Origin: a bacterium
GTDB lineage: Bacteria > UBA4055
DNA length: 19,007 nucleotides
Reading direction: 5' to 3'
NCBI GenBank assembly: GCA_029559475.1
Contig: JAKQBN010000033.1
Coordinates: 1-19,007, forward strand
Positions 1,199-13,915 of the stretch are shown here, one piece after another. The number at the start of each line of letters is the position of its first letter. The stretch's first letter is position 1. A program made the translations under genes and the position numbers. The notes beneath the pieces were generated by a model, which saw nothing but the letters and a program-made list of their open reading frames with translations, was not told the DNA's origin and searched no databases.

Positions 1199-1226
1199 AC
1201 CATTTCGAGGACATCCTCGATATGGT
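1199..1226. repeat. Palindrome 2, 28 bp near-perfect
   Basis: The arms ACCAT (1199-1203) and ATGGT (1222-1226) flank TCGAGGA (1205-1211) and TCCTCGA (1214-1220) around a CA centre. The whole is symmetric about 1212.5 with one mismatch (T1204/T1221). No T-tract follows, so it is not a typical intrinsic terminator. Confidence 0.65.
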
Positions 1227-1230
1227 TTTG

Positions 1231-1255
1231 AGTTGACTTCAATTTGTAGTCAACT
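1231..1255. repeat. Palindrome 3, 25 bp near-perfect
   Basis: AGTTGACT (1231-1238) pairs with AGTCAACT (1248-1255), and the inner CAA (1240-1242) pairs with TTG (1244-1246), leaving one T/T mismatch. It is symmetric about 1243. It begins 4 bp after palindrome 2, and on the minus strand its core reads TACAAATTG. Confidence 0.65.
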
Positions 1256-1296: not shown

Positions 1297-1360
1297 TTGA
1301 CATATTAACAATATTTTTGCATATTAACTGACACATTGTTATTGTGCATTATAATTGTTA
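1297..1360 (+). promoter_or_regulatory. Promoter region with three TTAACAAT-type operator heptamers
   Basis: Two promoter-like arrangements precede the gene at 1374. One is TTGACA (1297-1302), 17 bp, CATATT (1320-1325). The better one is CTGACA (1328-1333), 16 bp, TATAAT (1350-1355). The heptamer TAACAAT (1306-1312) and its inverse ATTGTTA (1335-1341 and 1354-1360) occur three times across these boxes. That arrangement fits an operator where the winged-helix protein encoded downstream might repress its own operon. The boxes and repeats are seen; autoregulation is inferred from AbiE-type systems. Confidence 0.55.
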
Positions 1361-1373
1361 ACACAGGAATAAA

Positions 1374-2348
1374 ATGAAGCTGATAGAAGAATTGAAAAAA
1401 TATATAAAAGACACTCTCGGTATTGAAGTATCAGCGGAACAGGCGAAAGCGGGTAACTTGCCTTTTTATCTTACGGATAAATACGATTTTTTCAAAATCA
1501 AACTGTTAAATGAATATTTTATCGTTATAAAACCGGTCGAAGATAATAGCGGTCCGACTCCATCCGAGATTCAAAAGCATATTTTAGCTTTAAGAAAATA
1601 TTTCAATGAAAAGATCATATATTCAGATACAAATATTACATCTTTCAACCGCAAAAGGCTGATCGAAAAACATATACCTTTCGTTATTCCGAAAACTCAG
1701 TTGTATCTGCCTATGCTTAAGATCGATATGCGCGAGCATTTTTCAAAGAAGACTGAAAGTATTAAATATCTGAGCCCTTCTGCCCAGTTTGTTTTTATAT
1801 ACCTGATCTTCAATGATTTTGATCTGAAGATCCCCGCTCAGAAACTAGCGGTTTTGCTGAATACAAGCGTAATGACAATAAACAGAGCGTTTAAAGAAAT
1901 GAAAACTGCAGGAATATGCGGGATCGAAAAGAAAGGCAAAGAAAACAATTATTCATTCACTGCCGGCAGAAAGGAAATTATTCAGAAAGCATTACCTTTT
2001 TTAAGATCACCGATATCAGGTGAATTCTGGATAGATAAAATCCCGAAAGATATAATATTTTATAAATCCGGGCTTGATGCGCTGTCTGAAATATCGCTAA
2101 TAGCTAAAGGTAAAAATATTGAAGCTGCGATCTCAAAAGAAGAATTCAAAAAGCTGAAGAATATTTTAGGATCAACCGAGTATGAACCGGGACAAGGCTT
2201 TAAGTTAGAAATATGGAGCTATTCTCCCGGAATTCTTGCAAAAAACGGCATAGTGGATCAACTCTCGCTTTATTTATGTCTGAAAGATACGGGTGATGAG
2301 AGGATCAAAAGCGAAATCGATAAGATATATAAAGGATTATTAAAGTGA
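1374..2348 (+). CDS. Winged-helix regulator, putative antitoxin of an AbiE-like nucleotidyltransferase module
   Basis: This 324-residue protein is predicted to be cytoplasmic. Residues ~95-122 carry LIEKHIPFVIPKTQLYLP followed by IDMREHF, a conserved-looking block. Residues ~132-196 form a winged helix-turn-helix (SPSAQFVFIYLIF, then LAVLLNTSVMTINRAFKEM and a wing near KKGKENNYSF). The C-terminal ~100 residues contain EIWSYSPGILAK and VDQLSLYLCLKD, which resemble regulators found beside AbiEii-like nucleotidyltransferases. It does not show the COG5340/AbiEi sequence seen in the gene at 5232. The start ATG has an AGGA 5 bp upstream, and the gene overlaps the next one by 4 bp (GTGA), which implies translational coupling. 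By analogy with type IV systems it would repress the operon and counteract the downstream enzyme. Function is inferred; a transcriptional regulator without antitoxin activity is the alternative. Confidence 0.65.
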   Translation: MKLIEELKKYIKDTLGIEVSAEQAKAGNLPFYLTDKYDFFKIKLLNEYFIVIKPVEDNSGPTPSEIQKHILALRKYFNEKIIYSDTNITSFNRKRLIEKHIPFVIPKTQLYLPMLKIDMREHFSKKTESIKYLSPSAQFVFIYLIFNDFDLKIPAQKLAVLLNTSVMTINRAFKEMKTAGICGIEKKGKENNYSFTAGRKEIIQKALPFLRSPISGEFWIDKIPKDIIFYKSGLDALSEISLIAKGKNIEAAISKEEFKKLKNILGSTEYEPGQGFKLEIWSYSPGILAKNGIVDQLSLYLCLKDTGDERIKSEIDKIYKGLLK

Positions 2349-3106
2349 TCAGAGGCATAGACAGATTCAGGGAAAGTTTTGAAAGTTTCAGCGACTGTTA
2401 TGTGATTATCGGCGGTACAGCCTGTGACGCACTCATGGATGAGGCAGGCATTGATTTTAGAGCGACTAAAGACATCGATATAGTTCTCCTGATCGAAGAA
2501 ATTAATGCTGATTTTGCTCAGCGTATTTGGGATTTCATTAAAGCAGGGAATTATCAGAATATTGAAAAAAGCATCGAATCAAAACAATATTACAGATTTA
2601 TGAAACCTGATAAAGATGATTTTCCTTACATGATAGAATTGTTTACCCGTAAACCTGATTTGATGCAAAAAAGTATCGATTCAAAGTTCACCCCGCTACA
2701 TTTTGGTAATTATATCTCAAGCTTATCAGCCATACTTCTTGATGAAGATTATTATAATTTATTGAAATCAAACAAGATCGTAATAGAAGGGATCTCTGTC
2801 GCGGGGACTGAAAGCCTTATACTTCTTAAGGCAAAAGCTTTTATTGATCTATCAAAAAGGAAAGAAGAAGGTGATCCTATCGATTCGAAAGATATTAAAA
2901 AGCACAGGAATGATGTTTTAAGACTGTCGCAGCTATTGAGTCAAGATCAAAGAATAAGTATAGCGAATAAATTAAAGTCAGATTTCGAAGAATTTATTGA
3001 TGCTTTATCCGATGACGACAACATTGATCTAAAACAGTTAGGAATAAAAAATGTTACGCTTAAGGATGTAACATCCAGGCTTAAAATAACTTTTGGGATA
3101 GAATAA
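2345..3106 (+). CDS. AbiEii-like nucleotidyltransferase, putative toxin
   Basis: This 253-residue protein belongs to the polymerase-beta-type nucleotidyltransferase superfamily. It has the signature IIGGTACDAL (21-30) followed by the metal-binding pair D43-I-D45 in ATKDIDIVLL. A likely third carboxylate is E98 in YMIELF. A lysine-rich segment at 155-193 (TESLILLKAKAFIDL, later DSKDIKKHRNDVLRL) resembles the C-terminal helical part of AbiEii/AbiGii toxins. Known relatives such as MenT transfer nucleotides to tRNA 3' ends; whether this protein does so is unknown. The GTG start lies inside the stop of the preceding regulator gene (GTGA overlap), typical of toxin-antitoxin pairs. Its stop codon coincides with the first bases of the duplicated leader at 3104. 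Confidence 0.7.
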   Translation: MIRGIDRFRESFESFSDCYVIIGGTACDALMDEAGIDFRATKDIDIVLLIEEINADFAQRIWDFIKAGNYQNIEKSIESKQYYRFMKPDKDDFPYMIELFTRKPDLMQKSIDSKFTPLHFGNYISSLSAILLDEDYYNLLKSNKIVIEGISVAGTESLILLKAKAFIDLSKRKEEGDPIDSKDIKKHRNDVLRLSQLLSQDQRISIANKLKSDFEEFIDALSDDDNIDLKQLGIKNVTLKDVTSRLKITFGIE

Positions 3107-3169
3107 TCGTTTGTTATATTGCTCTTGTGAATCGTAAAAGATTAATTAACTAAAGAGGAAAATGAAATG
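3104..3169 (+). repeat. Duplicated leader, copy 1 (before trmO)
   Basis: About 65 bp closely matches 4225-4291. The first 23 bases (3104-3126, containing TTTGTTATATTGCTCTT) are identical, and the rest is similar up to a shared AGAGGAAAA ribosome binding site followed by GAAATG. It contains a TATATT (3115-3120) that may serve as a -10 box. It starts exactly at the TAA of the nucleotidyltransferase gene, so transcription would begin right after that module. Confidence 0.75.
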
Positions 3170-3202
3170 GGAAGAAAGTTTAAGGCGCGGGAGGTATTAT
3201 GA
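3167..3202 (+). CDS. Possible leader mini-ORF overlapping trmO
   Basis: After the AGAGGAAAA Shine-Dalgarno of the leader, ATG 3167 opens an 11-codon ORF (MGRKFKAREVL). Its TGA overlaps the trmO start as ATGA (3199-3202). The position matches the mini-ORF in leader copy 2, but the peptides are unrelated. It may couple translation to trmO. It is too short for coding potential to be judged. Confidence 0.35.
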   Translation: MGRKFKAREVL

Positions 3203-4224: not shown

Positions 4225-4291
4225 TAATCGTTTGTTATATTGCTCTTATCAAAGCTAAAAGAGTAATTTAACTGGAGAGGAAAAAGAAATG
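4225..4291 (+). repeat. Duplicated leader, copy 2 (before the methyltransferase)
   Basis: This segment repeats 3104-3169. The first 23 bases are identical (4225-4247) and the next ~45 are similar, ending in AGAGGAAAA and GAAATG. CTCTT (4243-4247) can pair with AAGAG downstream (~4258-4262), giving a small hairpin after the TATATT (4236-4241). Matching leaders before two functionally unrelated genes point to a duplicated promoter/leader cassette. Confidence 0.75.
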
Positions 4292-5231: not shown

Positions 5232-6032
5232 ATGGGCGACGGAGTGTATATTTCAAAGAACATGAATTCTGATCAGATCGGTTTTATTCAGTTGCTGAAA
5301 GAAAACGAGATCGAATATTTCACAATTGATGATATACAGGACAGGCTTGGTCAAAATTATGAAAATATCAACGAAGTTCTGGAAAATCTGGTTAAGAAAA
5401 AATTTCTGGTCAGGCTGCAGAGAAAATATTATGCAGACATTAATTTCAACAATTCTTTTGTAATAGGTACTTTCATCTGTAAAAACAGCGCTGTCGGGTA
5501 CTGGTCTGCATTAAGCCATTACGGACTAACTGAGAGATTTCCAAATACTGTTTATATTCAGACAGTAAACAAAAAATCGGATAAAGCATTACTCGGTGTA
5601 AGTTACAAATTCATTAATATTAAACCGGAAAAACGAGCTGGAATTGTTAAATCCGGTTACGGGAACAACCAGTTTTTCATTACCGATATTGAGAAAACAC
5701 TTACCGACTGTTTTGATCTGCCAAAAAATTCCGGAGGATTTGATATTCTTATACCTGCTTTTCAAAGAGCCGATATAAACGCAGAGAAACTTATAGGATA
5801 CGCAAAACTGATCAATAATATCGCAGCTACAAAAAGAATGGGGTATCTGGCAGAACTATTCAATAAAACAAAACTGAGGAAATTTACGGCTTACGCAAAA
5901 TCGATCGTAAATGAAAGGTATAATGTCATTGATCCAAGCGGTAGCGATGAGGGAGAATTCGAAAACAAGTGGAAATTGAGGTTAAATGTAAGTAAAGAGA
6001 AAATTTTTAATATAGCTAACACAGAATACTAG
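5232..6032 (+). CDS. abiEi: AbiEi-family antitoxin / transcriptional autorepressor (type IV TA)
   Basis: A 266-residue protein with an N-terminal winged-helix domain (~15-68: FIQLLKENEIEYFTIDDI, then LVKKKFLVRLQRKYY). It continues with the COG5340 hallmarks GYWSALSHYGLTERFPNTVY (89-108), ITDIEKTLTDCFDLP (150-164) and KRMGYLAELF (201-210). AbiEi represses its own operon and antagonises the AbiEii nucleotidyltransferase without direct binding in studied systems. The ATG has GGAGGT 3 bp upstream. The toxin gene begins 2 bp after the stop, the standard abiE layout. Length is normal for the family. Confidence 0.85.
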   Translation: MGDGVYISKNMNSDQIGFIQLLKENEIEYFTIDDIQDRLGQNYENINEVLENLVKKKFLVRLQRKYYADINFNNSFVIGTFICKNSAVGYWSALSHYGLTERFPNTVYIQTVNKKSDKALLGVSYKFINIKPEKRAGIVKSGYGNNQFFITDIEKTLTDCFDLPKNSGGFDILIPAFQRADINAEKLIGYAKLINNIAATKRMGYLAELFNKTKLRKFTAYAKSIVNERYNVIDPSGSDEGEFENKWKLRLNVSKEKIFNIANTEY

Positions 6033-6034
6033 AT

Positions 6035-6913
6035 ATGATACTTAAAAAAGAGATTCAGAATAAATCGATCGAATGGGGAGTGCCTCCCGATACTGTGGAT
6101 AAAGATTGGGTTTTAGGCCATTTTCTATCAGCAATGTTCTCTATAGAAAAGTTTAAGAACGAATTGATATTTAAAGGCGGAACAGCTTTACGAAAATGCT
6201 ATTTTAACGATTATCGTTTCTCTGAAGATCTGGATTTTACCGCAATTGATCCTGATTACGTAATTTCTGTCAGGGATATTGACGAAATTACTCAGACTGC
6301 AAATAAAAATTCAGGTGTTCTGTTCCATATAGATAAGTTTAAAGAATTGAAATTTGAAGATAAGCTAACAGGATACGAGATCAAATTGAAATATTGGGGT
6401 GCTAATCATTCCAAAAGCCATGAACCGGCAGATAAAGAAAGGTGGGTATCCGGGATCAAAGTTGAAATAATACTATACGAGCAGGTTGTATTTAAACCTG
6501 TTATGAAAAAAATCATTCATCCATATTCAGATGCCTTTATATTCAACAGTCATGTAATCCCATGCTACGATCTTAAAGAAGTGACAGCTGAGAAGCTTAG
6601 AGCTTTGATACAAAGATCATATACAGCTCCGAGAGACTTTTATGACATTTATTCATTATGCGATCGATTTAAAGTATCTGAATGGAAAGAGATTATATCT
6701 GCATTTGTGCAAAAAACCAAATTTAAAGGATACGATCCTGAGAGTATTGAAAAGGTTTTTAACGAAACAACCTTAAAAAGCGTAAGAAATGCATGGAACA
6801 ACAGTATAAAGCATCAGATCTCTCAAGCCGATTTTCCTGAAATAGAAATTGTCTTGAGTAAGGTTAAGAATATTATAGAAAAGTATATTGTAGTGAGCAC
6901 AAAGAATTTATGA
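6035..6913 (+). CDS. abiEii: AbiEii/AbiGii-family nucleotidyltransferase toxin (type IV TA)
   Basis: A 292-residue DUF1814-type nucleotidyltransferase. The motifs are in order: KGGTALRKCYF (47-57) and RFSEDLDF (61-68, metal-binding D66 flanked by E65 and D68); a basic core strand near IKVEIILYE (141-149); EVTAEKLRALIQR (182-194); and RDFYDIYSL (200-208). These are the four conserved AbiEii motifs, so the enzyme looks intact. Characterised relatives inhibit growth and block phage spread; MenT homologues add nucleotides to tRNA acceptor ends. No strong ribosome binding site precedes ATG 6035, so expression probably depends on coupling to the antitoxin gene 2 bp upstream. Confidence 0.87.
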   Translation: MILKKEIQNKSIEWGVPPDTVDKDWVLGHFLSAMFSIEKFKNELIFKGGTALRKCYFNDYRFSEDLDFTAIDPDYVISVRDIDEITQTANKNSGVLFHIDKFKELKFEDKLTGYEIKLKYWGANHSKSHEPADKERWVSGIKVEIILYEQVVFKPVMKKIIHPYSDAFIFNSHVIPCYDLKEVTAEKLRALIQRSYTAPRDFYDIYSLCDRFKVSEWKEIISAFVQKTKFKGYDPESIEKVFNETTLKSVRNAWNNSIKHQISQADFPEIEIVLSKVKNIIEKYIVVSTKNL

Positions 6914-13330: not shown

Positions 13331-13444
13331 TCAGGTAACAAAAGACGGGGGAATCCTAGACCTCCTACTAGCGCAGGAAGGCCGAATCCGCTTAGACAGA
13401 GCCTGAAATTATTATAGATCCCGGTGTAAAACCCGGGATTTTTT
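13331..13444 (+). ncRNA. Candidate structured small RNA with intrinsic terminator
   Basis: The spacer between the porin and the convergent toxin gene holds a strikingly G+C-rich island (13345-13405) in AT-rich surroundings. It can fold as a three-way junction. P1 is TCAGGT (13331-13336) with GCCTGA (13401-13406). P2 is GGGGG (13347-13351) with CCTCC (13361-13365), including one G-U pair. P3 is CTAGCG (13368-13373) with CGC-T-TAG (13389-13395), with one bulged T. TCCT in the P2 loop is complementary to AGGA in the P3 loop, a possible kissing contact. A terminator follows 11 nt after P1. No known family was recognised. It could be an sRNA processed from the porin transcript or an independent one. 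The pairings are by eye, not by calculation. Confidence 0.45.
13418..13444 (+). terminator. Rho-independent terminator
   Basis: ATCCCGG (13418-13424), an 8 nt loop and CCGGGAT (13433-13439) form a G+C-rich 7 bp stem running into six T residues (13439-13444). It points along the plus strand and overlaps the end of the convergent toxin gene. It closes the porin transcript and/or the candidate RNA. Confidence 0.85.
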
Positions 13445-13712
13445 ATTTTGGAAAGTTTTTATAAATATCCTTTCTGTGTAAAGCTCTTACAAATACAACA
13501 GTATCATCAAGATATTCAAAACCGATTCTATAATCCGCAATTCTAATCCTGTAAAAATTTCTTGCACCGTGCAGTTTCTTAACATTTTTCAAATCTGAGA
13601 TACTCTCAGAAAACTTAACAATGTCAATCAGCTCTCTAATTCTATCAAATATTTTCTGGTCATCTATTTTCTTTAAATCTTTTTCAAAACTCGCTTCATA
13701 ACAAACTTTCAC
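13443..13712 (-). CDS. RelE/ParE-superfamily toxin (type II TA)
   Basis: An 89-residue protein with the RelE-fold pattern. An N-terminal strand (MKVCYEASFEKDLKKI) is followed by two helices, then KLHGARNFYRIRIADYRIGFEY (46-67), and a C-terminal VVFVRALHRKDIYKNFP (72-88). The basic/aromatic residues R55, R57, R62 and R80 with H79 are typical of mRNA-cleaving members. By family it would be a ribosome-dependent mRNA endonuclease or a gyrase poison; the sequence cannot decide. It overlaps the antitoxin gene by 4 bp (ATGA, 13709-13712), so translation is coupled. Confidence 0.85.
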   Translation of the reverse strand: MKVCYEASFEKDLKKIDDQKIFDRIRELIDIVKFSESISDLKNVKKLHGARNFYRIRIADYRIGFEYLDDTVVFVRALHRKDIYKNFPK

Positions 13713-13915
13713 TTTTTACCACCAAGAATATAATCGACAGCTTCTTCGCTTACTAAACTGTTTTTTCTTCCTTCTTCAATTGCTTTATACATTCCAGCGT
13801 CTTCAAAAGCAGAAACAAGAACTTCATAGAATTCATCATTTTTCTCATGTATAAAATCAATTATAATTTCTTTGAGCATAACCTTTATTTTATCGTCAGT
13901 AATCGTTTTCTGCAT
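13709..13915 (-). CDS. Small antitoxin partner of the RelE/ParE-like toxin
   Basis: A 68-residue, mostly helical, acidic-rich protein. The N-terminal half (ITDDKIKVMLKEIIIDFIHEKNDEFYEVLVSAFED) is followed by a tail (MYKAIEEGRKNSLVSEEAVDYILGGKK) resembling the toxin-wrapping ends of short RelB-like antitoxins. No clear ribbon-helix-helix DNA-binding motif is recognisable, so autoregulation is uncertain. The start has GGAG 6-7 bp upstream on the minus strand. It is the first gene of the pair and overlaps the toxin gene by 4 bp. Confidence 0.7.
   Translation of the reverse strand: MQKTITDDKIKVMLKEIIIDFIHEKNDEFYEVLVSAFEDAGMYKAIEEGRKNSLVSEEAVDYILGGKK

Follow-up and report, generated by a model that had tools for sequence, protein, structure and literature searches.

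The window, the whole stretch of 19,007 nucleotides that was analysed, lies on contig C19 of a Candidatus Delongbacteria genome, as judged by the MAGs closely related to it. The window carries two overlapping genes, called A and T here (Table 1). A codes for a protein of 324 amino acids, and T, which starts with GTG, for one of 253. An earlier reading made from the sequence only had described a 324-residue winged-helix protein without AbiEi hallmarks that overlaps by GTGA with a GG...DxD nucleotidyltransferase, and this description holds. The overlap is present, the winged helix is found in A while AbiEi is unmatched in Pfam, NCBIfam, and PADLOC, and T has the sequence IGG (residues 22-24) as well as D43-I-D45, with both glycines and both aspartates invariant. 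The two genes are likely translationally coupled through the overlap. Close relatives in other Delongbacteria are 93-97% identical as a pair; together with the distant pairs found across phyla, they show that the arrangement is not due to chance.

Table 1. Features of the A/T locus and of the neighbouring AbiE pair (nucleotide positions in the window; a dot marks features without a strand)
Feature	Position	Strand	Basis
Dyad ACCATTTCGAGGA-ca-TCCTCGATATGGT, terminator-like or second operator	1199..1226	.	dyad search
Dyad AGTTGACTTCAATTTGTAGTCAACT	1231..1255	.	dyad search
Putative promoter TTGACA-N17-CATATT	1297..1325	+	sequence; also upstream of the 42%-identical paralogue L007
Operator-like palindrome TGCATATTAAC-n9-GTTATTGTGCA, inferred A site	1318..1348	.	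genome specificity; kept in distant relatives
Gene A, three-domain regulator and putative antitoxin	1374..2348	+	ORF; AF2 model pLDDT 88.5; three-domain profile match to the COG4861 set
Domains of A: N-domain about 1-130, winged helix about 131-200, C-domain 201-324 (residues)
Winged-helix part of A, recognition helix S165-x-M167-T168-x-x-R171-A172	1764..1973	+	winged-helix matches (about residues 130-208), AF2 model, conservation
GTGA overlap, A stop and T start	2345..2348	+	sequence; overlapping genes in 51/57 family loci (counted without dereplication, with T as the longest ORF)
Gene T, nucleotidyltransferase, putative toxin	2345..3106	+	ORF; AF2 model pLDDT 87.9; MenT3/MenT1 among the closest solved folds
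T motif II R39-A-T41-K-D43-I-D45	2459..2479	+	T41, D43, D45 invariant 22/22 and 29/29
T motif III K162-A-K-A165-F166	2828..2842	+	K162, A165 invariant
T motif IV-like K186-H187-R-N-D190	2900..2914	+	K, H, D invariant; AbiEii has (K/R)DxxD (PMC3985639)
Neighbouring canonical AbiEi-AbiEii pair of COG5340-COG2253 type, outside the A/T module	5232..6913	+	PADLOC: AbiEi 9.4e-82, AbiEii 1.7e-84

The canonical AbiE pair lies about two kilobases downstream of A/T. Elsewhere the two modules are directly adjacent (loci L002 and L096), and in an Arcobacter plasmid (L025) a related nucleotidyltransferase pair adjoins A/T. Another contig of the window's own genome, C3, holds a pair of the COG4861-COG4849 type (AbiEi_2; L066), so that the host carries three different modules of regulator plus nucleotidyltransferase. 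Genes for a ParE-like toxin and a RelB-like antitoxin are also present on the minus strand at 13443-13915 (Pfam, 8.8e-9 and 7.3e-10).

Two copies of a repeat of about 63 bp, 84% identical, lie at 3107-3180 and 4228-4291 and are the only two in the genome. They bracket trmO, which codes for tRNA methyltransferase O, and an unassigned small gene. Loci L001 and L002 have copies close to the pair, and the repeat is also present in L092. A Schlafen AlbA_2/HATPase_c_4 gene at 136-1121 is split into two open reading frames and is shorter than its relative of 479 amino acids upstream of the pair in L001; it has probably decayed. In another Delongbacteria genome, the pair comes just after a short gene that matches the PADLOC candidate PDC-S05 at 4.4e-32 (2039-2347 of L001, 1963-2271 of L005), which may mark a defence island.

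Control region upstream of A

The operon had been credited with an operator-rich promoter of its own, and the 252-bp gap upstream of A bears this out, with two strong, compact dyads and a 31-bp palindrome that overlaps the -10 element of the putative promoter. The two dyads exceed chance: in 300 dinucleotide shuffles, the mean number of such dyads was 0.12, and two were never seen together. The palindrome is specific to A genes in the genomes scanned. Allowing up to two mismatches, it occurs at four sites in 98 whole genomes, and all four are directly upstream of A genes, one of them (G009:C167) on a contig from which no more than the initial 35 codons of A can be read. All 22 defined bases are present in the paralogue L007, and 19-20 of them are kept in loci from Phycisphaerae (L003), Shinella (L011), and Methylocella (L017) and in a viral contig (L034).

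The core of the palindrome, AAC-n9-GTT, is found in 18 of 48 A upstream regions compared to 2.9% of control segments, and the next best spacing, n3, reaches 7. It is missing from the other 30 regions, and many distant members show other dyads; overall, the best dyads upstream of A are stronger than those of control segments (mean 8.3 versus 5.9). The core is absent upstream of seven COG4861 genes and from the AbiE promoter of the window. An exact operator scan of IMG/VR returned four palindromes (L125, L126, L127, and L128), none beside an A gene. The pattern, although specific in the tested genomes, is therefore not exclusive to A genes across a collection as large as IMG/VR; in these four contigs the palindrome may serve another regulator.

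The specificity and conservation of the operator, along with a recognition helix (S-x-M-T-x-x-R-A) that is conserved in the alignment of A relatives, make autorepression of the operon by A, through the palindrome, a well supported prediction. The presumed A site would then have remained identifiable between phyla whose A proteins are about 30-40% identical.

Folds, motifs, and family of A and T

No curated Pfam or NCBIfam model matches A or T above its cut-off, and PADLOC has no match for either. Scans of all aligned family members against the libraries give weak matches only, and phmmer searches of both proteins against the PDB return nothing. The PADLOC candidates PDC-M21B for T and PDC-M05A for A were set aside as weak and as belonging to different system numbers. 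The pair consists mostly of “hypothetical protein” genes unrecognised by the libraries tested, and surveys of toxin-antitoxin and defence systems therefore undercount it.

For A, Pfam offers only generic winged-helix models, below cut-off, and a profile search against solved structures relates the middle of the protein to MarR-type regulators. The winged helix is confident in the AF2 model, while the domain arrangement is not reliable, given a pTM of 0.60. Foldseek and a second structural search with this model found winged helices and, in the N-domain, weak XisH matches, and no firm structural assignment for the N- or C-domain. A role of the N-domain as a nuclease-like sensor domain is speculation on the basis of these matches.

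Two associated pairs were described by Dy et al. in 2014, COG5340-COG2253 (AbiE) and COG4861-COG4849 (PMC3985639), and PF09952 corresponds to COG4861 (PMC7251935). The profiles of A and T were compared by hhalign with seven proteins carrying PF09952 and six of their partners, and with 15 COG5340-type and 10 COG2253-type proteins. A aligns with COG4861 at 97.2% (E 3.8e-11) over 268 columns that run through the N-domain, the winged helix, and the C-domain, and T aligns with the COG4849 partners at 95.8% (E 7.8e-9) over 146 columns. Reversed and column-shuffled controls give 0.3% or less (0.1-0.3% for A versus COG4861). Since single domains of A score 29-60%, its link to COG4861 rests on the colinear sum of the domains. 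The Pfam model PF09952, which covers the C-domain of COG4861, is found at E 0.1 or better in none of 25 A members; two genuine PF09952 proteins reach 76 and 155 bits.

These comparisons suggest that A/T is very probably a distinct and unnamed branch of the AbiE/MenAT superfamily, on its COG4861-COG4849 side. The proposal of a variant module whose antitoxin belongs to a different family can be kept insofar as A is not AbiEi (COG5340); what has to be revised is its separateness, as A is a distant relative of COG4861 with the same three-domain order. That A/T is instead a plain member of AbiE that has diverged beyond recognition is highly improbable. The gene order and the layout of a winged-helix protein plus a nucleotidyltransferase are the same, T matches PF08843 (AbiEii) in Pfam with 14.6 bits, below the cut-off of 22.5, and A scores 88.4% against COG5340. 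This last match, however, spans 122 columns centred on the winged helix, which scores as high alone, and T reaches only 11.9% against COG2253. Moreover, PADLOC finds a true AbiE elsewhere in the window (about 1e-82) and nothing for A or T. A/T is thus distinct from AbiE, as the sequence-only reading had maintained, and the canonical pair is a separate locus.

Conservation in T was assessed in two alignments, of 22 and 29 relatives. The invariant residues include G23, G24, T41, D43, D45, R84, F85, E98, K162, A165, K186, H187, and D190; the two glycines, D43, D45, E98, K162, and D190 are of catalytic type. In motif III, the relatives have K-x-x-A followed mostly by W, Y, or F, and the arginine of the COG4849 pattern KLxA-aromatic-xxR is absent from its stated place. 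The “AbiEii-like tail” ascribed to T is therefore right only in part: K162-x-x-A165-aromatic is there, but the arginine of motif III is lacking and motif IV reads KHxxD rather than (K/R)DxxD.

The AF2 model of T (pTM 0.88) has a fold of the AbiEii/MenT class. The closest solved structures include 5uvd, a fungal nucleotidyltransferase-like protein of unknown role (Z 11.4), MenT3/TglT (Z 11.3, with 200-205 residues aligned at 4.1-4.2 A), MenT1 (Z 10.6), and JHP933 (Z 10.1). MenT1 (8an4) is also weakly matched by the T profile (E 0.23), aligned over GG and TRDVD. Two residues before the DxD motif, at the place of the Ser/Thr acceptor of type VII MenAT-like toxins, T has a threonine. This residue, T41, aligns with T39 of MenT1, which is phosphorylated in the presence of the antitoxin and whose counterpart in MenT3 is S78 (PMC11375011); the title of PDB entry 8rr5 also records the MenT1 phosphosite. 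MenT toxins add nucleotides to the 3' CCA ends of tRNA (PMC10435456), and by analogy T may act on tRNA 3' ends too.

The fold of T also matches the antibiotic nucleotidyltransferases ANT(2'')-Ia and LnuA (Z 8.5-9.2), and the MarR/Crp-like winged helix of A is typical of ligand-responsive repressors. One could therefore consider a role in small-molecule modification, with T adenylylating an antibiotic or metabolite and A serving as an inducible repressor. This is improbable: MenT3 matches T better and over more of the model, T41 and the lysines of motifs III and IV are features of the toxin family, and the profiles link the pair to COG4861-COG4849. In addition, T decays while A stays (see below), which a resistance pair need not show.

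Distribution, decay, and likely role

The A and T profiles were searched separately in 386 genomes, which mostly belong to other families of the domain, and led to the identical 13 places in 12 genomes. T is also found in phage records and on 32 IMG/VR contigs, and A precedes it in all 31 of these contigs that have upstream sequence. A neighbourhood survey had been suggested as a check, and a lack of co-occurrence is decisively contradicted by these counts. Relatives of A occur in 33 plasmid records and relatives of T in 51, from Pseudomonas (on megaplasmids), Novosphingobium, Shinella, Methylocella, Croceicoccus, Mesorhizobium, Acetoanaerobium, Latilactobacillus, Collinsella, Phocaeicola, Sulfurospirillum, Arcobacter, Edwardsiella, and Pantoea; the plasmids span Pseudomonadota, Bacillota, Actinomycetota, Bacteroidota, and Campylobacterota. 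In the 22 plasmid and phage regions read, A lies directly before T except where one of the genes is damaged. Altogether, the pair is carried by conjugative and other plasmids, phage contigs, and chromosomes in at least seven phyla. The pairwise distances of A and T are closely correlated (r = 0.92, reached in none of 2000 permutations), which on its own proves only linkage, since overlapping genes of an operon are inherited together anyway.

Loci in which one gene is broken were examined with tblastn. In seven of them, A is intact and T is broken: T is interrupted by IS481 (L010), gone (L016), reduced to 19 residues (L018), frameshifted (L029), replaced after about residue 97 (L061), or stripped of its catalytic core by internal deletions (L104 and L105). 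The reverse is seen only in L031, where IS66 genes take the place of A and T is full-length with a compensated +1/-1 frameshift. The seven-to-one count comes from a small sample gathered in several searches and is not an unbiased rate, but the direction of decay is the one expected if T is dangerous without A.

Taken together, A/T is best explained, with a probability of about 0.7, as a mobile module of the toxin-antitoxin type, in which A represses its own operon and T is a nucleotidyltransferase toxin of the pol-beta fold acting on RNA. Going by the conservation of the site, A would bind the palindrome over its own promoter and repress the operon. A, whose translation precedes that of T and is linked to it through the overlap, would also hold T inactive, and antitoxin-promoted phosphorylation of T41, as proposed for MenT1 and MenT3, may contribute, given that T41 is invariant. 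When A is lost or titrated, T, judging by its fold and motifs, would add nucleotides to RNA, most likely to tRNA 3' ends, and halt translation. The benefit would be the stabilisation of mobile elements, abortive infection, or both.

The toxicity of T should not be taken for granted, however, since MenT2 of M. tuberculosis showed no detectable toxin activity (PMC11375011); its system, MenAT2, has a COG4861 antitoxin and is the nearest characterised one of the COG4861 type. A literature search on the PF09952/MenA2 antitoxin found no experimental study beyond those cited here by PMC number. A could also be a regulator linked to a housekeeping nucleotidyltransferase, with no antagonism between the two, and the joint inheritance of overlapping genes would be accounted for in this way. 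Such a role is quite improbable for a pair that is patchy (12 of 386 genomes) and mobile, that loses the toxin gene first, and that has a conserved operator, all of which point to a selfish or defence module.

Phage defence, with the nucleotidyltransferase switched on by infection rather than acting in addiction, is a sub-case of the toxin-antitoxin explanation and does not exclude it; it is a tentative reading, falling short of even odds. AbiE relatives give phage resistance (PMC3985639), members of the family adjoin AbiE and HipA genes (L025) or a type II restriction enzyme (L011), and the pair occurs on phage contigs, as exclusion between phages would need. On the other hand, carriage by conjugative plasmids fits addiction equally well. 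A more specific version, which is unlikely, would make A a sensor-antitoxin whose N-domain senses foreign DNA or a phage product and frees both the operator and T. If this were true, the pair would form a distinct class of phage defence that has a trigger of its own, is common on megaplasmids and phages, and escapes the detection libraries tested.

Comparison with known systems

Among known systems, the COG4861-COG4849 pairs, such as Rv0837c-Rv0836c (MenAT2; AbiEi_2 PF09952 plus a DUF1814-type nucleotidyltransferase), resemble A/T in having the regulator first and the nucleotidyltransferase second. Their antitoxins, like A, have 320-390 amino acids with an N-domain, a central winged helix, a C-domain, and a conserved arginine near the end, and their nucleotidyltransferases share with T the sequence T-x-D-x-D and a lysine segment that precedes a KD/KH motif. 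They differ in that the aligned identity is about 16%, motif IV of T is KHxxD and not KDxxD, and A lacks PF09952. AbiE is likewise bicistronic with the regulator first, and combines a winged-helix protein with a DUF1814-like nucleotidyltransferase that has R-x-(S/T)-x-D-x-D. However, AbiEi has its winged helix at the N-terminus followed by one C-domain, whereas in A the winged helix is in the middle.

JHP933 of H. pylori resembles T in its fold, matched over the full length. MenT1 and MenT3 (TglT) of M. tuberculosis share with T the fold, the DxD motif, and the phosphosite threonine or serine at 11-17% identity. Their antitoxins are unlike A, as MenA1 is a single extended helix and MenA3 is AbiEi-like. 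The A/T pair offers a test of whether nucleotidyltransferase toxins undergo antitoxin-induced autophosphorylation, here at T41, outside the mycobacteria and with another antitoxin architecture.
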